Origin: a virus
Length of the DNA stretch: 39,254 nucleotides
Strand: one strand, 5' to 3'
Virus record (IMG/VR): IMGVR_UViG_3300028776_000029
Coordinates: 1-39,254 of that record
Shown here: positions 1,967-33,781 of the stretch, one piece after another
Layout of the letters: every line of letters starts with the position of its first letter
How positions within the stretch are numbered: the first letter of the stretch is position 1
The notes under the pieces: generated by a model
What the model was told of the DNA's origin: nothing
Databases searched by the model: none
The model's input: the letters and a program-made list of their open reading frames with translations, nothing else
Made by a program: the position numbers and the translations under genes

Positions 1967-3776
1967 CGCCTGATATCCTATGTCCGCTCATCCAGCCTCC
2001 CAATACCACAATTGGCACAGGGCTAACACATACTAGTTTATAACAGCGATTTCGTGACGTACCTAATTCATACCAGCGCATACGCCATTGATATTGGCCT
2101 TGCACCGAAAACTCGCGTACATCGGCGGAGGCAAAGGTAATTCCACCGTCATCCGACCAGTATAATTCAATATGCGGTTTAAATAGCGTGTTATAGGTAG
2201 GGCTTTCTGTCGTGGGAAAATTACCATCTTCGGTAATGATAAAAACAGGTTCGCCTTCCACACTATTTTCCGCAATAATATAAATGGGCTTGCTATCTGC
2301 CCCTTCATTTTCCGCAATAATGAATGTGGTATTTTCGAATGGCTCATCACTATAGTTAATAAACGATTCGCCAAACACAAAATCTATTTCAACATACTGT
2401 GTTTCAAATTCTGAATTGGTAACATCATCAGGTTCAAAATGATCTACATTGATAAGCGGTGTAACGGCTTCTTGCCGAAACGGTTCAACGATATAAGCAT
2501 CAATCGCCTGTGCATTAGCTTGTGCAGGATTGCGTCTTTCATTCACATAGTACTGGCCTGCCATATCATAAACAGTACCATCCCCTAACACCGTAACTAA
2601 ATGGCGATTGGCAAAGTAAAGATGCTTTCGAATACGCGAACGTCCACCATTTAATTCAGCACATCGACTCCACTTTTCTAATCTGAAATTAAACTGGGTA
2701 GAAAAACTGTCTGTGATCTTATCCAGAAAACCAGTAGGATCGAATAAACCACCAGAAAGCCGATAGAAAATACGATTCTCATATTCATATAAAAACCCAT
2801 CATAAATAATCGTGTTATTAGGTGATAGCTTTTGCCGATTCGTGAGTCGTTGTAATAAAACATCCATAGCTTCCCCTTGCATCACTTCCGGGGTATTGCC
2901 TTTCATTCGCATGGGTTGGACCAAGCCATTTTTATACTGGCCTAGCCATGCGATATAATCAAAGCTGGTATCTACAGTATTAGCAGCATTATCAGCTAGT
3001 CCTACATTACATTGCGCAGAAGAGTTTTTCTTGAAAGGAAAAGTGGTTGTTGTACCAGTATCATCAGTGACTGCCGAAGGCGTATCACTCCATATACCTA
3101 TACTAAATGCAGTGAATATGTAAAGTGTATTATCCTTAACGGCAAACTGCCTGATTAAATCGACTTCTTGCGCAAAGACATTCGGTACTGAACCAGTATT
3201 GACCATGACATTTGCTAAAAAAGTATTGAATGGTTGTGTTGGGTCGCCCAATAATATTTGAGACAGAAAGAAAGCGGCGCTAGTAGGACTACCTAATAAT
3301 AATCGACTTCCAAACACTTTAATATAAAGCGGATTGATGTGCGTTGTCGTAGCGATACCAAACTCTTGCGTATCTTCCCGGTAAATATAAAGGTGCTGAC
3401 CATCAGCAAAGCAGGCATAAACAATTGAACCATTAACAATAAAATCAAAGAATATATCACCCGCCTGTGTGGTTAGCTCTACAGGAATGGTAATAACCGT
3501 TTCATTGAAATTGTTATCTACGCGAATAATGGAATTAGCCACTACATAATATGAGTAGTTAATGGTTTTTACTTCATTGCGGGGTTCAGCACCAAAGACC
3601 AGCTTATTCTCATTTAAATAACGAACGTGCCGCCTGCCCATCTCAGGGTACATGGCGACTTTCTTTTTGCCAAGCTCACTTTGGTTGAGTGTCCAATTGA
3701 CGGCATCGGTAGGATTAAACTGCTTAAAACGTGCCGTGTCGAAGTAGGTAATTATCGGAAGGTCAACGACTGGCAT
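1956..3776 (-). CDS. Tail hub / packaged-DNA stabilization protein, P22 gp10-like
   Basis: The protein has 606 residues (P22 gp10 has 472). It is rich in beta strands and aromatic residues throughout, as expected for a hub with propeller-like folds that closes the portal after packaging. The C-terminal region (about residues 535-595) reads IELYWSDDGGITF, then REFSVQGQYQWRMRWYELG, then CVSPVPIVVLGG. This matches the P22 gp10 pattern of a 'sKDGG.tWs... G.y..r..w..LG..r..v.rv..s.PvP' ending. It sits directly after the gp4-like gene. The extra length lies mostly around residues 450-530, where a repeat is visible (TFIIAENEG, IYIIAENSV, VFIITEDG), possibly a host- or needle-interaction insert. Confidence 0.8.
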   Translation of the reverse strand: MPVVDLPIITYFDTARFKQFNPTDAVNWTLNQSELGKKKVAMYPEMGRRHVRYLNENKLVFGAEPRNEVKTINYSYYVVANSIIRVDNNFNETVITIPVELTTQAGDIFFDFIVNGSIVYACFADGQHLYIYREDTQEFGIATTTHINPLYIKVFGSRLLLGSPTSAAFFLSQILLGDPTQPFNTFLANVMVNTGSVPNVFAQEVDLIRQFAVKDNTLYIFTAFSIGIWSDTPSAVTDDTGTTTTFPFKKNSSAQCNVGLADNAANTVDTSFDYIAWLGQYKNGLVQPMRMKGNTPEVMQGEAMDVLLQRLTNRQKLSPNNTIIYDGFLYEYENRIFYRLSGGLFDPTGFLDKITDSFSTQFNFRLEKWSRCAELNGGRSRIRKHLYFANRHLVTVLGDGTVYDMAGQYYVNERRNPAQANAQAIDAYIVEPFRQEAVTPLINVDHFEPDDVTNSEFETQYVEIDFVFGESFINYSDEPFENTTFIIAENEGADSKPIYIIAENSVEGEPVFIITEDGNFPTTESPTYNTLFKPHIELYWSDDGGITFASADVREFSVQGQYQWRMRWYELGTSRNRCYKLVCVSPVPIVVLGGWMSGHRISGGAD

Positions 3777-3781
3777 AGGGG

Positions 3782-4516
3782 CTATATCCCCGCACGAACG
3801 CGATACGCACCATTTAACATATTGTCGTTGCTTTGCTTAATTACCAAATTGATTGGACTAATGGCTACAATATCAGAGCGTAGCCCTTCATAGGTATCTT
3901 CCAATTCCTTTGTCCATGATTTAGCTCGCCCTTTGTGGAATGCCGTGTACTTGGCACACGCATATTCAAAGAACAATAGAAAATAATCAGGAAGTGTACT
4001 CATATCCATTGATTCAGAAATATAGGCTAGTTCAAATTTCCCATAAATCCATAATTCATAGAACTGAGATGCACCCGGCCATATTTCAAGATTGGTGTAA
4101 TTCGTTTGATTATCAATAATGCCAACTAAAGGCAAACTTTGCATTGGAAAATACTTCGCCGTGCTATAGAACACATTACGGTTAATGACTTCCATGGGAT
4201 AGTCAACCCCATCAAGATTAAGCCACAAGTTTTGAATCTCAGCCAATCGGCCTTCGGTAACATCGGGGATAGGGTCAGTAAAGCCGGGTGCGGCAAAGTT
4301 AATAAACTGTGTACCATTCTCAATAGGAAAATGAATTTTCTTGGGAATAGTGATCATGAGTGCTGTACCGCTATATGATCTTAATAAACGGTTCATGACT
4401 TTCACACCCGTTGCCGTATCCCACCCATGCAAGGGAACGGTCGGGCTATGCGAGCTTATCAATGAATAAAAGTCATTAACAAACTCTTTGACCGATTCAT
4501 TGTAAACATTTGGCAT
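3782..4516 (-). CDS. Head completion / tail adaptor protein, P22 gp4-like by position
   Basis: The protein has 244 residues and opens with a predicted helix (VKEFVNDFYSLISS). Its middle is beta-rich (ITIPKKIHFPIENG; DGVDYPMEVINRNVFY), and it ends with helices carrying the charged stretch AFHKGRAKSWTKELEDTYEGL. It lies immediately before the gp10-like hub gene, with five bases between stop and start. P22 gp4, the first tail accessory factor bound to the portal, occupies this slot but is shorter (166 residues). Assignment is from synteny and general character. No lysozyme-like motif was recognised. Confidence 0.6.
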   Translation of the reverse strand: MPNVYNESVKEFVNDFYSLISSHSPTVPLHGWDTATGVKVMNRLLRSYSGTALMITIPKKIHFPIENGTQFINFAAPGFTDPIPDVTEGRLAEIQNLWLNLDGVDYPMEVINRNVFYSTAKYFPMQSLPLVGIIDNQTNYTNLEIWPGASQFYELWIYGKFELAYISESMDMSTLPDYFLLFFEYACAKYTAFHKGRAKSWTKELEDTYEGLRSDIVAISPINLVIKQSNDNMLNGAYRVRAGI

Positions 4517-4522
4517 AGCGCA

Positions 4523-4876
4523 TTATTCCTTGTCGGATTTAAATGAGCGTTTTTTCTTGCCGCCTAACAAGGTAGATAACATGGAATTGTCAGAAGCTAA
4601 TTTATCTTGAACGGTTTCAATATCCTCTGAACCATCATCGGAAATTTCAGAATCATCTTCCATTGCATTATCATCGTCTAAACTATGCGCGGCTTTGGCA
4701 TCTTCTTTTGAATGAAACCACCCTTTATTCAGTGCATCAATATATTCACGATGATTTTCGCATAATAATTGATCAAATCCTGTCTGCTGTAATTTGTTTA
4801 ATTTATATACGAATGCGCGTAGGTGTTTTGGATTAATCCATTTTCCATTATAGGGTATTTGTGTCGTTTTCTTCAT
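4523..4876 (-). CDS. Small acidic head-region protein
   Basis: The protein has 117 residues. The N-terminal half is a basic/aromatic module (IPYNGKWINPKHLRAFVYKL). The C-terminal half has a dense acidic run (around residues 68-88) followed by a lysine-rich end (LLGGKKKRSFKSDKE). A Shine-Dalgarno AAGGA lies about 11 bases before ATG 4876. It is the first gene after the coat-gene terminator, so it may need read-through or its own promoter. No family is recognised; it could be a capsid accessory protein. Confidence 0.6.
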   Translation of the reverse strand: MKKTTQIPYNGKWINPKHLRAFVYKLNKLQQTGFDQLLCENHREYIDALNKGWFHSKEDAKAAHSLDDDNAMEDDSEISDDGSEDIETVQDKLASDNSMLSTLLGGKKKRSFKSDKE

Positions 4877-13050: not shown

Positions 13051-13066
13051 GCCCCCGCAAGGGGGC
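13051..13066 (+). terminator. Hairpin after DUF932 gene
   Basis: GCCCCC-GCAA-GGGGGC is a perfect 6-bp GC stem with a stable GNRA tetraloop, seven bases after the DUF932 stop. Only a short TTACTTT follows, so it may be a weak terminator or an mRNA 3'-end stabiliser that allows some read-through to the downstream small genes. Confidence 0.55.
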
Positions 13067-13742: not shown

Positions 13743-13900
13743 GCAATTCAGCCAAATATTTCGTTTTTATGCTGGTGCTAGGGGTGTGGAAAATTGATGT
13801 TGATATAGGCGTCCAAGGAGTGTTTAAAGATATTATATACTGCGGTGTTGTAGTGGCTTTATTAATCATGTTTTGTAGTTGGTGCAAGGAGAAAAAATGA
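13739..13900 (+). CDS. 53-residue membrane protein
   Basis: An N-terminal hydrophobic stretch (YFVFMLVLGVW) and a C-terminal transmembrane segment (YCGVVVALLIMFCSW) flank a short polar part. The coding end contains AAGGAG, which serves the next start. It overlaps both neighbours by four bases. Function is unknown. Confidence 0.5.
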   Translation: MSNSAKYFVFMLVLGVWKIDVDIGVQGVFKDIIYCGVVVALLIMFCSWCKEKK

Positions 13901-14079
13901 AAACCCTAGAGCAAGTTAAAAAGTTTATTGAAGAAAAGGCGCAGTATCACCTTGCATGGGCGAAAGATACAGAGTTAACAAATGATCAAAGAATAAGACA
14001 TTTTGATAAAACTACAATTTATAAAGATTTAATGGACTACATTGACTCGGATGAGGACAAAGCTAATGCTAATCCATAA
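13897..14079 (+). CDS. Tandem helical family member 1 (MKTLEQVKKFI...DYIDSDED)
   Basis: ATG 13897 follows AAGGAG. The 60-residue protein is all-helical and charged. It shares with several downstream neighbours an N-terminal 'MKTxEQhKcFh' block and a C-terminal 'hhDYIDSxED' block, with a variable middle. The end of the gene (GATGAGGACAAAGCT) supplies the Shine-Dalgarno sequence of the next gene. No function is known; family members are probably small adaptor- or inhibitor-like helical hairpins. Confidence 0.65.
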   Translation: MKTLEQVKKFIEEKAQYHLAWAKDTELTNDQRIRHFDKTTIYKDLMDYIDSDEDKANANP

Positions 14080-14203
14080 AGGTTGTGGAGGAGAAATTAT
14101 AACGAGGCGTTGTCAATGGGACGATTGCTTTCTTGGTTGTGATACGTGCGACCAACACGAATTTTGTGAAGGATTTGAAACTGAGGAACATCCCGATGCG
14201 TGA
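14066..14203 (+). CDS. 45-residue cysteine-rich miniprotein
   Basis: ATG 14066 lies 8 bases after GAGGA. The product has six cysteines in 45 residues (GCGG, RRCQWDDC, GCDTCDQHEFC), enough for one or two metal sites. It overlaps the previous gene by 14 bases and the next by 8. No family is recognised. Confidence 0.5.
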   Translation: MLIHKGCGGEIITRRCQWDDCFLGCDTCDQHEFCEGFETEEHPDA

Positions 14204-14366
14204 ACTAAAACTAATTAAATTAAAGCCATTAGTAATAGGTGGAGATCGAGCTATTAAACTTGAAGTAGCCTATGGAAATTGTATTGAAGTTACGATTTAT
14301 TCCATCCAAGAGATAAATAATATTCTGGAAGAAGTTAAAAAAATATTATTGGAGCAGCCCACATGA
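14196..14366 (+). CDS. 56-residue hypothetical protein
   Basis: ATG 14196, after GAGGA, gives MRELKLIKLKPLVIGG..., a run of beta strands followed by a C-terminal amphipathic helix (IQEINNILEEVKKILLEQ). It is linked to the following gene by ATGA overlap. Function is unknown. Confidence 0.55.
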   Translation: MRELKLIKLKPLVIGGDRAIKLEVAYGNCIEVTIYSIQEINNILEEVKKILLEQPT

Positions 14367-14440
14367 ACATACGAGGAAAGTTTGATATGCCAATATCCCA
14401 TTGGCAACCGCTTCCTGAGCCGCCGGAGAAAGAAAAATGA
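14363..14440 (+). CDS. 25-residue peptide (uncertain)
   Basis: The tiny frame MNIRGKFDMPISHWQPL... is Pro- and Glu-rich at its end. It is ATGA-overlapped on both sides, which keeps the translational chain unbroken. Its GGAGAAAG segment acts as the ribosome site for the next gene. It may be only a coupling peptide. Confidence 0.4.
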   Translation: MNIRGKFDMPISHWQPLPEPPEKEK

Positions 14441-14580
14441 AAATGATTAAAAAAATCTTATGTTTTTTTGTAGGTCATAATTGGGATTCTATTTTTGACA
14501 ATCATGTTGGAGCAAGATGCAAATATATTGAATGTAATTCTTGTAAAAAAAGGAAATATTTCCCTTATGAAGACGATTGA
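14437..14580 (+). CDS. 47-residue zinc-ribbon miniprotein
   Basis: The protein has a hydrophobic start (MKMIKKILCFFVGHNW) and the pattern C...GHNW ... C-x4-C-x2-C-KKRK. This is the same 'GH.W ... C.(x)C' plan as the 29-residue protein at 13653. The 3' end overlaps the next gene by 14 bases. It may bind nucleic acid through the basic end, but this is inference. Confidence 0.55.
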   Translation: MKMIKKILCFFVGHNWDSIFDNHVGARCKYIECNSCKKRKYFPYEDD

Positions 14581-14746
14581 TCATGAATTCAGAGAAGATA
14601 ATTTTGCTTGCCCTCACTGTGGTTATGTTTTTTCTGATTGTTGGGAATGGCCTGAAAACGGCGAGGATGAATGTTGCGAATGCAAAGGTAAATTTTCATA
14701 TTGTAAAGAATTTACAACCCATTATTGTACGGAGATTATATTTTGA
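14567..14746 (+). CDS. 59-residue zinc-ribbon protein with two CxxC knuckles
   Basis: From ATG 14567 the protein carries FACPHCGYVF, later CCECKGKF, and then CKEF and HYC. Two CxxC pairs separated by 24 residues make a typical four-cysteine zinc ribbon. Its first codons (MKTIDHEF) resemble the MKTxE start of the helical family, perhaps because of shared coupling sequence. The next gene starts at a TTG that overlaps its stop. Confidence 0.65.
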   Translation: MKTIDHEFREDNFACPHCGYVFSDCWEWPENGEDECCECKGKFSYCKEFTTHYCTEIIF

Positions 14747-14925
14747 AAACGATTGAGCAAGTCAAAGAATATATACATCTTACAATAACAAGAGAGCAGA
14801 ATAGATTCGTAAACGCAAAATACAAATTAACGAAAGATAAAGATCATGCTTTAATAATTATTGATAATTTTAATAAATTACTTGACTACATCGACAGCGA
14901 GGACGCGAATGACACATCATCATGA
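14743..14925 (+). CDS. Tandem helical family member 2, TTG start
   Basis: The first family-like codons are TTG AAA ACG ATT GAG CAA GTC (LKTIEQV), 8 bases after GGAG. Alignment with MKTLEQV/MKTVEQI neighbours makes this TTG (14743) the likely start, overlapping the previous stop as TTGA. The 60-residue protein ends NFNKLLDYIDSEDANDTSS. The codons for SED contain GAGGA, used by the next gene. A rare start codon would make its yield depend on coupling. Confidence 0.6.
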   Translation: MKTIEQVKEYIHLTITREQNRFVNAKYKLTKDKDHALIIIDNFNKLLDYIDSEDANDTSS

Positions 14926-15097
14926 ACATTGTATGAGCGAAAATAGTTACTGCAACGCTATGAATGAAGTAAGGCTTCTAATAAGGAAGATGTCAAAAAC
15001 AGCTTTATTTGGCCAATGGACAATGTTAGCTGATCTGGATAGAGAGATAGTTAATTTGATGGAAAATAAAGAGGCCAGCGATGCAAAAGATAATTGA
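14909..15097 (+). CDS. 62-residue hypothetical helical protein
   Basis: ATG 14909 (MTHHHEHCMSENSYC) has GAGGA six bases upstream; ATG 14933 is an alternative. The N-terminus is His/Cys-rich. The rest is helical (MNEVRLLIRKMSKTALFGQW; LADLDREIVNLMENK). It overlaps the previous gene by 17 bases and the next by the same amount. Function is unknown. Confidence 0.55.
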   Translation: MTHHHEHCMSENSYCNAMNEVRLLIRKMSKTALFGQWTMLADLDREIVNLMENKEASDAKDN

Positions 15098-15257
15098 TTA
15101 TACAATAATAAATGGCGATGACAAATTAGCAGTAATTAGTGATACAAAGTTTTTTATTAATCAAGGTTGGCAACCTTTTGGAAGCTTAACTTTGCAGATA
15201 GGGGAAAAAATAATATTGTATTGTCAACCAATGGTGATGTATGCAGAAGATAATTAA
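15081..15257 (+). CDS. DUF1737-like small protein, copy 1
   Basis: The 58-residue protein starts MQKIIDYTIINGDD, with INQGWQPFGSL and ends YCQPMVMYAEDN. DUF1737 proteins have this plan: a beta strand, a helix ending 'xxGWqplGg' and a C-terminal 'yyQAMvk'. Copy 2 follows immediately and starts inside its last codons. Role unknown. Confidence 0.6.
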   Translation: MQKIIDYTIINGDDKLAVISDTKFFINQGWQPFGSLTLQIGEKIILYCQPMVMYAEDN

Positions 15258-15432
15258 GTATGCCATTGCCGGTTCAAATGAAAGTTGTAAAAATTTAGAA
15301 GATAAAGTTAACGCCTTAATAGACGATGGTTGGCAACCTTTAGGCGGCTTTCAATATTGGTCATGCGAAAATGGAAGGGTAAGAGCTTATTTTCAAGCCA
15401 TGGTCAAATACAGTGAGGAAATAGGCGAATGA
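15241..15432 (+). CDS. DUF1737-like small protein, copy 2
   Basis: The 63-residue protein MQKIIKYAIAGSNESCKNLE... contains NALIDDGWQPLGGFQYW and RAYFQAMVKYSEE, a clearer DUF1737 match than copy 1. Its first bases (ATGCAGAAGATAATTAAGTA) closely match the first bases of copy 1, yet lie in another frame over the last codons of copy 1. That is what an unequal tandem duplication leaves. Confidence 0.7.
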   Translation: MQKIIKYAIAGSNESCKNLEDKVNALIDDGWQPLGGFQYWSCENGRVRAYFQAMVKYSEEIGE

Positions 15433-15587
15433 AGCTATTTAATGTTTTTATGTTGGTCTTAATGATAGTGCATATTGCATTAGACCGTTATACAACTACT
15501 CACTATAACGATTATTTAGAGATATTGAATTTTGTTATTATTGTAATTTTACTTTTGTGTTTAATAGCGGGATTGATATTGACATGA
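15429..15587 (+). CDS. 52-residue membrane protein
   Basis: Two transmembrane segments are seen: residues 3-18 (LFNVFMLVLMIVHIAL) and about 33-51 (LNFVIIVILLLCLIAGLIL), joined by a polar loop with His and Tyr. It is ATGA-coupled to both neighbours. Function is unknown; a holin- or pinholin-like role cannot be excluded. Confidence 0.55.
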   Translation: MKLFNVFMLVLMIVHIALDRYTTTHYNDYLEILNFVIIVILLLCLIAGLILT

Positions 15588-15907
15588 CCAAGACAGTTGA
15601 AGAATTAATTAAAATTAAAGATGAAGCCTATGGCGAAAGAAATAAGTGCATTGCTGCTTTAGCCAATTTTATAAGAGACATAGCTTATCCTAACTTTCGC
15701 GTTTTTGTAGCTGAACATGTGGGTGATGATTGGGAAGATGACTGGCGCACAGTTCTTGTTATTGAGAAAGGTGAACTTCAAATGACGTGGCACTTTCATG
15801 ATTCTGAAAAAAATCTTTTATCAAGACTTCCAACGGATAAGTTATACAAATGGGATGGACATGACACAAAAGAAAAATACAACAGATTAATAAGGTGCTT
15901 TATATGA
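15584..15907 (+). CDS. 107-residue conserved phage protein with WHFHDSE and WDGHDTxEKY blocks
   Basis: The start MTKTVEELIKIKDEAYGERN resembles the helical family N-terminus, but the remainder differs. It contains DDWRTVLVIEKGELQMTWHF, then HDSEKNLLSRLP, then KWDGHDTKEKYNRLI. These blocks recur in hypothetical proteins of many phages; the function is not known to me. It appears to be a helix fused to a small alpha/beta domain. ATGA overlaps connect it on both sides. Confidence 0.65.
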   Translation: MTKTVEELIKIKDEAYGERNKCIAALANFIRDIAYPNFRVFVAEHVGDDWEDDWRTVLVIEKGELQMTWHFHDSEKNLLSRLPTDKLYKWDGHDTKEKYNRLIRCFI

Positions 15908-16080
15908 TGAAAACAGTTGAAGAAATCCTAGAGATAATTGCCGAGCGCAAAGAAACTCTCTTAGAGAATATGAAAGAAACGCAAAAACTTTGCGGCACAA
16001 ACAATCAAGGTTACTCTTATGATCTAGGTGCTTATGACGAATTGAATTACTTACTGGATGATATCAATGAAAACAGTTGA
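15904..16080 (+). CDS. Tandem helical family member 3 (MMKTVEEILEI...LLDDIN)
   Basis: The 58-residue helical protein has the conserved MKTVEEI start (ATG 15904 or 15907) and a C-terminal YDELNYLLDDINENS block. The 20 bases at its second ATG (ATGAAAACAGTTGAAGAAAT) are identical to those opening the next family member at 16067, which indicates recent duplication. The middle is unrelated to the other members. Confidence 0.65.
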   Translation: MMKTVEEILEIIAERKETLLENMKETQKLCGTNNQGYSYDLGAYDELNYLLDDINENS

Positions 16081-16246
16081 AGAAATCAAGCAATTCATTA
16101 TGAAAGAACAGAATCTAGCAATGAGAATTATTGCTGATTATGTTAAACGCAAATTAAAAGAGGAAAAATATTATCAACAAGGTTGCCATGATCAATGCAG
16201 CGCAATATTAAACTTCATCGAGGAAGCCCCGAATGAGAAGCAATGA
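16067..16246 (+). CDS. Tandem helical family member 4 (MKTVEEIKQFI...ILNFIEEA)
   Basis: ATG 16067 lies within the last codons of member 3 (14-base overlap). The 59 residues are a helical, Lys/Glu-rich middle bounded by MKTVEEIKQF and CSAILNFIEEAP. The codons for IEEA contain GAGGA, 12 bases before the next ATG. Confidence 0.65.
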   Translation: MKTVEEIKQFIMKEQNLAMRIIADYVKRKLKEEKYYQQGCHDQCSAILNFIEEAPNEKQ

Positions 16247-16454
16247 AGAAATAAAAGAATTTTGCTTAACGCAATTAGCGTTTTACAAAAATTCTGAAAG
16301 AAATACAGATATTGATTTAGAGAGCACGGTCAGATATATGGTTAGAGCTAAGTGCATGGAAATGATGATTGATTTTATTAACTCAAAGGATTTATCGAAT
16401 GAAAACCGCCGAGCAGATAAAAGACTTTGCAATAGGACAATCAATTCTTTGTAG
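16233..16454 (+). CDS. Tandem helical family member 5 (MRSNEEIKEFC...MIDFINSKD)
   Basis: The 73-residue frame begins MRSNEEIKEFCLTQ and reaches MEMMIDFINSKDLSNE, the usual family end. It then reads 16 further residues (NRRADKRLCNRTINSL) that lie out of frame over the start of member 6. This 56-base overlap suggests the original stop was lost and the tail is secondary. Confidence 0.6.
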   Translation: MRSNEEIKEFCLTQLAFYKNSERNTDIDLESTVRYMVRAKCMEMMIDFINSKDLSNENRRADKRLCNRTINSL

Positions 16455-16569
16455 AGCTAGAAAAAAGAAATATGATGATAGTTATAGATTTTATGATGCT
16501 AAACAAGAAGCGTTTGAAGAAATTTTAGAATTCATCGACTCCGAGGATACGTTAAATGAAAACGGTTGA
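16399..16569 (+). CDS. Tandem helical family member 6 (MKTAEQIKDFA...ILEFIDSED)
   Basis: ATG 16399, 8 bases after AAGGA, gives a 56-residue protein that is the clearest prototype: MKTAEQIKDF at the start, a Lys/Arg/Tyr-rich middle, and FEEILEFIDSEDTLNE at the end. The DSED codons (GACTCCGAGGAT) give the next gene its Shine-Dalgarno sequence. Confidence 0.65.
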   Translation: MKTAEQIKDFAIGQSILCRARKKKYDDSYRFYDAKQEAFEEILEFIDSEDTLNENG

Positions 16570-16744
16570 ACAAATAAAAGAATTCAAAGCTACTGAAAAA
16601 CTTTATGAAGCTTTAGATTCTAGAATTGCGAGAGAATTGCCTGTAAAAGTTAAAGAAATATGGGAGATTGCTAAAGTAGAGCAACTTAAAAGAATTGCTG
16701 AGTCCTTAGAAAATTTAGTGAAATATTTCGAGGATAAGCCATGA
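16556..16744 (+). CDS. Tandem helical family member 7 (MKTVEQIKEFK...LVKYFEDKP)
   Basis: ATG 16556 overlaps the end of member 6 by 14 bases. The 62-residue protein keeps MKTVEQIKEF and ends LENLVKYFEDKP, again with GAGGA in the final codons placed before the next ATG. The middle is a long helix (LPVKVKEIWEIAKVEQLKRI). Confidence 0.65.
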   Translation: MKTVEQIKEFKATEKLYEALDSRIARELPVKVKEIWEIAKVEQLKRIAESLENLVKYFEDKP

Positions 16745-17004
16745 CCCATTACCGCACCTCACACGATCAAGAAATAGAATTAGGCTTGAGAGGGGCATTA
16801 GAATTTGCCGAACGGTCTATTGAAACTTTTGAGATGGAGAAGATTATCATAAAAATAAGAGAAGCTTTGATGTGGTTGGAGGAGGAAAAGAAAAAAGGTG
16901 CTAGCCGTTATTTAGATGCTCCCGATAGAAAAGAAGTTTCTCACCGACAACCTTCACCTAAAAAGATTTTACCACCCCCTAAATTTTTACCGAGGATAAA
17001 ATAA
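16741..17004 (+). CDS. 87-residue hypothetical protein
   Basis: The N-terminal MTHYRTSHDQEIELGLRGAL block and a following amphipathic region (FAERSIETFEMEKIIIKIRE, ALMWLEEEKK) are helical. The last 30 residues are Pro/Lys-rich and likely disordered (PSPKKILPPPKFLP). It is ATGA-coupled to family member 7 and its stop overlaps the next start. The opening block resembles other phage hypothetical proteins. Confidence 0.6.
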   Translation: MTHYRTSHDQEIELGLRGALEFAERSIETFEMEKIIIKIREALMWLEEEKKKGASRYLDAPDRKEVSHRQPSPKKILPPPKFLPRIK

Positions 17005-31702: not shown

Positions 31703-31712
31703 TTCTAAGATT
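31695..31712. terminator. Small bidirectional hairpin between convergent genes
   Basis: AATCTTA-ATTC-TAAGATT is a perfect 7-bp AT-rich stem overlapping the stop codons of both converging genes. It is weak, but the location suits a bidirectional transcript end. Confidence 0.4.
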
Positions 31713-33231
31713 ATTCATATTCATAAATAAACATCCAACCGGAAGCACCCGGCGCTCCTGCTTCATTAGATGAGATTGCCACACAGCCACCCCCTCCTGA
31801 ACCGTTACCTGTTGCTGCATTTCCTGCTCCCGCCCCTCCGGCTAGTGGCGCTCCACCCGCGCCATAATTGGAATTACCACCAAATCCACTATATCCTGCC
31901 GCAGTCGAACCACCTTGCAATGCAATTCCGCCTGATTGACCACCTTGATTGGAATAAATAGTTCCCGACGTAGTACCAGATACTGCACCACCGGCTGCGG
32001 GAGGAAGAAAGTTAAACCCGGGACCTGCATAAACAGCAGAACCCAAACTACCCATTCCTCCATTCGCAACAATACTACCCGAGGCAGGTGAAAATATAGT
32101 TGCCCCCCCATTCCCACCGTTATTATTACCGGCAGCACCTGCTGTTCCACCAGTTCCTATAATCAATGAAGCGGTTGTACCTACTTGTGCGGCGGTTAAT
32201 TTACCTGTAATGCGATTACCACCCCCACCACCTGCTGTAGCATTCCAAGAGCCTGTGGTGGCCGCAGCGCCACCTGAGCCACCGCCAGCACCACTCATAT
32301 CATAAACAATGGAACCCATACCATGAGTCGGCGTATAGGTGAAAGTACCTGCGGTTTCAAAAGCCTGAATATTCAATAAACGACCCGGGCTATTGCCAGC
32401 GCTAGCATAGGGCAACCATGTTGTTATCGCAGCATCATAAATCATTTCAAATGATGAACCAGCCGCGAGGTAATTTGGCGCACCTAAAATACTATGTCCT
32501 GCGTCTGGATTTACAGTAAGTGATGTAATAGCTTGAGTAGTTGAAACTAGACAACGTAAATTAGCAACCCCAGTTGGCATCGTAATTGTGCCACTAGCAA
32601 GTGTTCCTGCTGGATTTAACGGTGTCCAATGGACAGAGCCGCTTAAGGTAATTGAAAATCCAGTAGTGGGGGTTTGTACTGTCCAACCAGTTTCCGACTG
32701 AGTACCACTGAAAGTAGCTGATGGATAAGTGCCTCCTGATGGGGCTGTCATACTTCCAAAAACCTGATCGTTACTACCTATCAAAGAAAACTGATAAGTA
32801 CCACTTGGGGCGACATTATAAATACCACCTATAAATGCCCTGCTAATCTGTTGGGAACCTGTTCCAGTAACACTGATACGAAGGGTATTATTTTCACCTA
32901 CAACCCCAGCATTATTCACTAATATATTGCTACTTTCGGCATTCGTATAGGAACTTCCCGCTCCCCATCCAAAGAAAATATTGGAACTGCCAGAGAGTAG
33001 TGCGGGCGCAAAGTTATATCCTACTCCACTATTTTGGCTTCCTGTCAGTAATGAAGTTAACCCATTATAACCAATGGCCACATTATTAGTGCCAGTAGTT
33101 AGTCCATTTAAAGCATTGGAACCAACTGCAACGTTGGCGGCTCCGGTGATAGATGTATTACCAGCATTAATCCCCACCATTGTATTCAAACGGAGGTCAG
33201 TATTATTATTAATATTATTGTTGGTTGCCAT
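31711..33231 (-). CDS. Tail tip adhesin: YadA-head-like N-part, glycine-rich C-part
   Basis: The 506-residue protein has N-terminal repeats (about residues 30-95) of the type 'GaaNVAVGSNALNGLTTGTN' and 'NVAIGYNGLTSLL', like the beta-roll of YadA heads. Residues about 290-506 form a glycine-rich domain beginning FETAGTFTYTPTHGMGSIVY, with many GGxGG tracts, and ending SGWMFIYEYE. Glycine-rich sandwiches are known in phage receptor-binding adhesins such as S16 gp38. It is the last gene of the late cassette, a common place for host-range determinants. Confidence 0.65.
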   Translation of the reverse strand: MATNNNINNNTDLRLNTMVGINAGNTSITGAANVAVGSNALNGLTTGTNNVAIGYNGLTSLLTGSQNSGVGYNFAPALLSGSSNIFFGWGAGSSYTNAESSNILVNNAGVVGENNTLRISVTGTGSQQISRAFIGGIYNVAPSGTYQFSLIGSNDQVFGSMTAPSGGTYPSATFSGTQSETGWTVQTPTTGFSITLSGSVHWTPLNPAGTLASGTITMPTGVANLRCLVSTTQAITSLTVNPDAGHSILGAPNYLAAGSSFEMIYDAAITTWLPYASAGNSPGRLLNIQAFETAGTFTYTPTHGMGSIVYDMSGAGGGSGGAAATTGSWNATAGGGGGNRITGKLTAAQVGTTASLIIGTGGTAGAAGNNNGGNGGATIFSPASGSIVANGGMGSLGSAVYAGPGFNFLPPAAGGAVSGTTSGTIYSNQGGQSGGIALQGGSTAAGYSGFGGNSNYGAGGAPLAGGAGAGNAATGNGSGGGGCVAISSNEAGAPGASGWMFIYEYE

Positions 33232-33241
33232 TACTTATCCC

Positions 33242-33781
33242 TTATACGTAAGTGAGATTTCCATTTGGAGCAGCTTTCACTTTCCAGGTAGTGTTCGCAA
33301 CAATACATATTAATTCACAACCATCATATTGATTAGTTGAAGACAGACTGCCGGTAGTCGTAGTAGTGGTTATAGTACCAAAATGAATTAATTGTCCGGT
33401 GCCATAAACAATTGTCCAGCCACCGGCTCCAGCCCCTTCAACTGCTACTCGCTGTCCTATTGCACCAGTTGTAGGTAAAGTAAAAGTAGTCAGGGCTGCA
33501 TTATTTGAAATATATCCATTCTGGACGGCCATTGCTTGAGTAGTAGTAGTTGTATTTTGCCAAGTAAAAGAAGAAGTCGCAGACGCATCAGCAGTCCATA
33601 CGGCACCCGTGGTATTACCTGTAGTAGTACATGTATATCCGATGGCTCCTGACGTATCAAAAAAGAAATCGCCTTTTGTCCCTGCTACCGCTCCATTTGG
33701 ATTTCCTGTTCCTACTGTTGATGCAGGACTATAGAGTCCGTCACTGACAGCTATTCGATTAAAACTATTGTTAGTTGCCAT
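33242..33781 (-). CDS. Tail fibre/collar protein with C-terminal 'NLTYV' domain, copy 1
   Basis: The 179-residue protein starts MATNNSFNRIAVSDGLYSPA and is Thr/Gly-rich. The last 105 residues (VQNGYISNNAALTTFTLPTT; GQLIHFGTITTTTTTGSLSS; IVANTTWKVKAAPNGNLTYV) are paralogous to the C-terminal domain of the next gene upstream. The domain looks like a small beta sandwich. It probably forms trimeric or peripheral tail parts. Confidence 0.6.
   Translation of the reverse strand: MATNNSFNRIAVSDGLYSPASTVGTGNPNGAVAGTKGDFFFDTSGAIGYTCTTTGNTTGAVWTADASATSSFTWQNTTTTTQAMAVQNGYISNNAALTTFTLPTTGAIGQRVAVEGAGAGGWTIVYGTGQLIHFGTITTTTTTGSLSSTNQYDGCELICIVANTTWKVKAAPNGNLTYV

Follow-up and report, generated by a model that had tools for sequence, protein, structure and literature searches.

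The viral record IMGVR_UViG_3300028776_000029, a single record of 39,254 bases referred to here in its full length as the window, was found to encode seven small proteins with the common start MKTxE[EQ][IV]Kx[FY] (the start block), and five of their genes (members 3–7, 15907–16744) form one unbroken overlapping chain. The genes are paralogous at the N terminus, carry two codes at once where they meet, and follow one another at a constant frame offset. The array is probably an old family whose seven paralogous members are small helical-hairpin proteins, the genes being laid out as a translationally coupled chain with self-compatible junctions. All seven open frames (56–73 amino acids) are real genes, as originally predicted, the third starting at 15907 (a start at 15904 would add one Met); members 1 and 2 lie outside the chain, each with an unrelated small gene behind it (Table 1).

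When the starts of the 70 genes of the window were compared with each other, 25 pairs reached a score of 22 or higher, where shuffles would give 1.1, and almost every such pair fell inside the seven-member set. Leave-one-out profiles likewise recovered all seven members, with at most 2 of 500 shuffles attaining the score. Codons 2–11 were then examined in 210 pairwise comparisons, which gave 51 synonymous changes and 60 identical codons; among same-residue pairs, identical codons therefore numbered 60 of 111, compared with 56.8 expected for a random draw under local codon usage. Because the residues are kept while the codons are scrambled, the start block is conserved as protein and not as a DNA signal, and the shared N-terminal MKTxEQIKxF-type block of the original prediction holds at the protein level. 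Saturation of the synonymous codons within the block makes the paralogs look old by sequence. Members 3 and 4 are the exception, the first 21 bases being identical (20 had been claimed).

AlphaFold2 models of members 1 and 6, for which the alignment consisted of the seven sequences, showed the same two-helix hairpin (H4–22/24 and H29/30–50/52), with predicted local distance difference test (pLDDT) values of 88 and 84, respectively. Since the first helix begins at residue 4 in both models, T3 together with E/Q6 would, from helix chemistry, be a helix-capping box.

The shared C-terminal end proved to be only half protein; the remainder consists of the next gene's start signals read out of frame. 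For the protein half, a nine-residue helix end (e.g. FEEILEFID) gave shuffle p values of ≤0.001 in members 1, 2, 5, and 6 and marginal values of 0.03–0.064 in members 3, 4, and 7, so that on sequence grounds the hydrophobic helix end with I(D/N)S appears convincing in four members. A hydrophobic-IDSED end had been predicted as common to the set: its helix end is significant in the genes at 13897, 14743, 16233, and 16399, whereas the exact IDSED occurs only in those at 14743 and 16399, the other tails being IDSDED (13897), INSKD (16233), IEE (16067), FED (16556), and IN (15907). Members 1 and 2 share the helix end (repeat family D9) even though the genes after them are unrelated, and it therefore belongs to the protein.

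For the other half, SED and its acidic codons (GAG GAY) coincide at most junctions with the following gene's ribosome-binding site, GAGG; in six of the seven members, GAGG or AAGG stands 6–9 nucleotides (nt) ahead of the ATG that follows. The terminal NEN(G/S)-stop, AAT GAA AAC NGT TGA, is the next gene's ATGAAAACNGTTGA in another frame. A typical start block in the window shuts both other frames within 14 bases (ATGA plus GTTGA). In member 6, codon 4 is GCC instead of GTT and the usual out-of-frame stop is absent from the start block, which is why member 5 reads on for 15 residues. Start-to-start distances equal 1 modulo 3 for the first six members, and overlaps are mostly 14 nt. Two of the junctions (members 5/6 and 6/7) form a 57-nt direct repeat with 70% identity. 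An in-window control was provided by two tandem DUF1737-like genes: an unrelated gene ending inside the first DUF1737-like start and the first copy, ending inside the second start, both finish with (K/E)DN-stop, because the overlapped starts are read in another frame. These two genes themselves overlap by 17 nt and add another small duplication to the cluster. The counter-explanation set beside the original prediction, that the ends are ribosome-binding or coupling sequence only, thus applies to SED and NEN and fails for the start block and for the helix end of the genes at 13897 and 14743.

Taken as one family, the proteins would begin helix 1 with an N-capping block, MKTxE[EQ][IV]Kx[FY], maintained by selection on the protein, and would close helix 2 with a hydrophobic stretch followed by acidic residues. 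With each chain gene ending inside the next start, the junctions carry two overlapping jobs: the following gene's ribosome-binding site (GAGG) lies within the acidic tail codons, and the out-of-frame stop of the previous gene lies within the next start block. Units with such ends could be chained with expression unbroken, and recombination between the junctions of about 57 nt could add or remove copies; the conserved ends would serve the fold and also join the units. We infer that the array grew by such junction recombination, that its genes are translationally coupled, and that the chain co-makes a set of small accessory proteins whose divergent centres would bind host proteins or one another's. 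Overlapping gene pairs are known to be translationally coupled (PMC6728339), and the title of a 2023 study (PMC10666635) states that overlapping pairs often encode subunits of heteromeric complexes. The array resembles such pairs in having the stop inside the next start and the Shine–Dalgarno sequence inside the upstream gene, and it differs in repeating paralogous units with fitting ends and in its overlap (14 nt versus 1–4 nt).

Several results weigh against a single duplicated family. After both ends had been trimmed, leave-one-out profiles scored mostly within the shuffles, with only members 1 and 2 at ≤5%. The middle parts are accordingly unrelated at sequence level, as had been claimed, and because the centres show no detectable homology by these profiles, the case for full-length homology of members 3 and 7 lies mostly in the start block. 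The two alike hairpin models argue only weakly for one family fold, because the alignment had seven rows and the two-helix hairpin is a common shape. Fold searches of BFVD and PDB gave no significant match, nor did a profile search against PDB sequences; modelling, suggested at the outset as a check, thus yielded a shared hairpin shape for the two members covered and no significant fold match. All other contigs of the window phage are 100% identical to it and offer no strain variation. Closing of both frames was seen in five of the seven members compared with 8 of 27 and 11 of 34 other genes, a modest excess only. Finally, the starts could have converged, because the start block sits on unrelated proteins elsewhere. 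The original proposal of repeated duplication, in which the ends are conserved and the centres diverge, fits the data.

Relatives of the array were sought in several collections. The members gave no significant match in Pfam, PHROGs, or PADLOC, the weak single hits (best E values of 0.002–0.003) lying below or without a cutoff; profile searching, another of the checks first suggested, therefore recovered the members by leave-one-out and found no Pfam or PHROGs relative. Among GenBank phages, no real relatives emerged from a distant blastn with the region or from tblastn with members 1 and 6, and portal and DUF932 searches of IMG/VR returned only contigs identical to the window phage. Arrays of the same family in other phages, which the original prediction had proposed to look for, were thus seen only as identical copies of this phage in IMG/VR and not at all in GenBank phages. 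In GTDB (84,980 genomes), the ten-residue start pattern found 24 unrelated proteins and no array. The strict pattern found three IMG/VR contigs, the window phage among them, and a looser one found 24 (about 20 other viral contigs), mostly with unrelated bodies, e.g. HNH-like. Because it occurs on unrelated proteins in GTDB and IMG/VR, the start block is, by these sequence matches, no family marker outside the window phage. The pattern MKTxE..Y..G..AL, that of a hairpin family taken to be common, gave no match. No described array of this kind was found in the literature covered, from which subscription journals were mostly missing.

These searches bear on the proposal that the genes are unrelated, their starts being alike by convergence (on a good helix cap and an A-rich initiation region) or because neighbours copied start regions from each other, and their ends through Shine–Dalgarno coding. 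We consider this rather unlikely. It is favoured by the many unrelated proteins with the same start, by neighbouring genes in other phages that share just their first 5–7 codons in DNA (contigs L068, L039, and L044, described below), by the like endings of the genes that end inside DUF1737-like starts, and by the gene at 15584, which bears the start on a WDGH-like body. That gene had been predicted as an eighth protein sharing only the start. It does share it (KTVEE), and its start AAGACAGTTGAAGAA is 81% identical in DNA over 26 nt to AAAACAGTTGAAGAA of member 3 (family D10), which may reflect a copied start region. Its product contains a literal WDGH motif, matches phrog_16023 (E value of 4e-9), and scores 21.5 bits against PF25311 (WDGH; E value of 2.9e-4), below the curated cutoff of 27. 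Judged by these matches, it is a WDGH-domain-like protein in the middle of the cluster and not an array member; the members do not match PF25311. Unrelated genes would leave unexplained the density of such starts in one 39-kb phage, which is far above that in the rest of the collections (strict IMG/VR pattern), and the helix end that members 1, 2, 5, and 6 have in common as well, at an almost constant distance.

A second proposal makes the array an arsenal of host-interaction or anti-defence proteins, in which a conserved scaffold carries fast-evolving centres, each with a different host target. Host interaction is the most usual guess for genes such as these, and for the array proteins we only infer it. 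The small size of the proteins, their divergent centres, and their place in an accessory-gene region (DUF1737-like, WDGH-like) all agree with such a role, which we regard as possible although doubtful: PADLOC produced a weak hit and no known defence family beyond it, the identity of all other contigs means that no population variation shows fast change, and synonymous saturation points to old rather than recent duplication.

The start block might instead be a sorting tag like the T4 capsid-targeting sequence, one that would load several small, unrelated proteins into virions to be injected. The T4 internal proteins ipI, ipII, and ipIII resemble the array in having an MKT-start common to otherwise different small proteins of one phage. 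They share little beyond that start (MKTYQEFIAEA, MKTFKEF) and are otherwise a highly diverse set (PMC3012670), so the layout of shared start and different body is the same. Two other contigs also carry tandem MKTFEQ/MKTFEEF genes, MKTFEQLYQQ... adjacent to MKTFEEFFTEN..., like T4-type capsid-targeting starts (L041, 2295–2686; L045, 3626–4017, minus strand). Two features of the T4 system were not found here, namely a tag cleaved by prohead protease and linkage to the head, and the T4 genes form no overlapping chain. None of the head and neighbouring genes that were searched matched a prohead protease family, and the start block is predicted to be part of a folded hairpin; for these reasons the sorting tag was rated very improbable. 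Further, the array adjoins accessory and lysis genes rather than head genes, and unrelated bacterial proteins carry the same start.

The layout of the array was also sought in other phages. Pairs of MKTxE-starts 150–180 bases apart were found in seven other contigs, at least five of them with real adjoining small genes; in L068, L039, and L044, the neighbours are alike in DNA over the first 5–7 codons and then diverge. On the minus strand of the L044 locus (3653–4621), three genes begin with an identical ATGAAAACACCTGAA; one of these starts is joined to a GWISVKDRLP...THWMPLP body, and a neighbour carries the same body without that start. A permuted control start, MTKxE[EQ], gave 24 loci compared with 8 for MKTxE[EQ]. 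The sharing of starts by neighbours is accordingly not MKT-specific, and MKT as a special tag was rejected. Several of the control hits belonged to one MTKLEEVIKEME family and had their second match by chance.

The control also uncovered a second array family, MTKLEELKAA..., with alanine-rich, helical-looking variable centres and a conserved end, ELKKTQEE..ND, in contigs L073 (1371–2120), L092 (1766–4654; seven copies), L072, L074, L086, and L088. In L073, four chained copies overlap by exactly 8 bases at a spacing of 1 modulo 3, with the stop TAA inside the next ATGACTAA; this start block also shuts both other frames within 14 bases (ATGA plus ACTAA). No match to the family was found in Pfam, nor by tblastn in GenBank phages. 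As in the window, small genes stand in tandem with conserved ends and a variable centre, and the next start supplies the stop; the sequence is unrelated, the centres are alanine-rich, and the overlap is 8 rather than 14 nt. Tentatively, phages may time and again evolve chains in which the conserved ends of small helical proteins serve as self-compatible connectors, with divergent payloads added, lost, and reordered by junction recombination while co-translation is kept; the window and MTKLEELKAA... would be two independent cases.

The window is an almost complete, circularly permuted genome, because contig L004 runs identically across its two ends and adds 22 bases. The phage is P22-like; its portal protein matches portal family phrog_156, and some of the named-phage proteins that match this portal best bear a P22-like annotation. 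The genome further has a large terminase, a major head protein, an ejection-protein match, O/P-like replication genes, and an exonuclease VIII-like gene. The array sits in a rightward-reading run of small genes, which opens with DUF932 (PF06067) and closes with a spanin-like lysis gene plus the gene next to it. Two small genes of the cluster (14909–15097 and 16741–17004) each start with MTH and are probably helical. Elsewhere, a tail-fibre-like gene (31711–33231, minus strand) and its neighbour (33242–33781, minus strand) both begin with MATNN(N/S), which may be an attachment end that was duplicated.

Table 1. Array genes, junction repeats, and other features of the small-gene cluster
Feature	Coordinates	Strand	Description
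Member 1	13897–14079	+	60 amino acids, MKTLEQVKKFI...LMDYIDSDED; unrelated gene next at 14066, 14-nt overlap
Member 2	14743–14925	+	60 amino acids, TTG start, LKTIEQVKEYI...LLDYIDSED; unrelated gene next at 14909
Member 3	15907–16080	+	57 amino acids, MKTVEEILEII...LLDDINENS; alternative ATG at 15904
Member 4	16067–16246	+	59 amino acids, MKTVEEIKQFI...ILNFIEEAPNEKQ
Member 5	16233–16454	+	73 amino acids, MRSNEEIKEFC...MIDFINSKD; final 15 residues are the out-of-frame run into member 6
Member 6	16399–16569	+	56 amino acids, MKTAEQIKDFA...ILEFIDSEDTLNENG
Member 7	16556–16744	+	62 amino acids, MKTVEQIKEFK...LVKYFEDKP
Junction repeat, copy 1 (members 5/6)	16371–16427	+	Helix end, Shine–Dalgarno sequence, and start block; family D5
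Junction repeat, copy 2 (members 6/7)	16528–16584	+	Helix end, Shine–Dalgarno sequence (GAGG), and start block; family D5
WDGH-like domain gene, non-member	15584–15907	+	107 amino acids, start MTKTVEEL
Two tandem DUF1737-like genes (15081, 15241), control	15081–15432	+	PF08410, both below the curated cutoff
Terminator-like hairpin	13051–13066		After DUF932

A shared start such as MKTxEE is not sufficient alone to call a family. The array is of moderate interest, chiefly because its layout recurs. If the connector idea is true, it would offer a rule, open to test, for the way in which phages assemble and vary their sets of small accessory proteins, and also a warning for annotation, since like C termini in tightly packed phage genes may be the next start read out of frame rather than homology.

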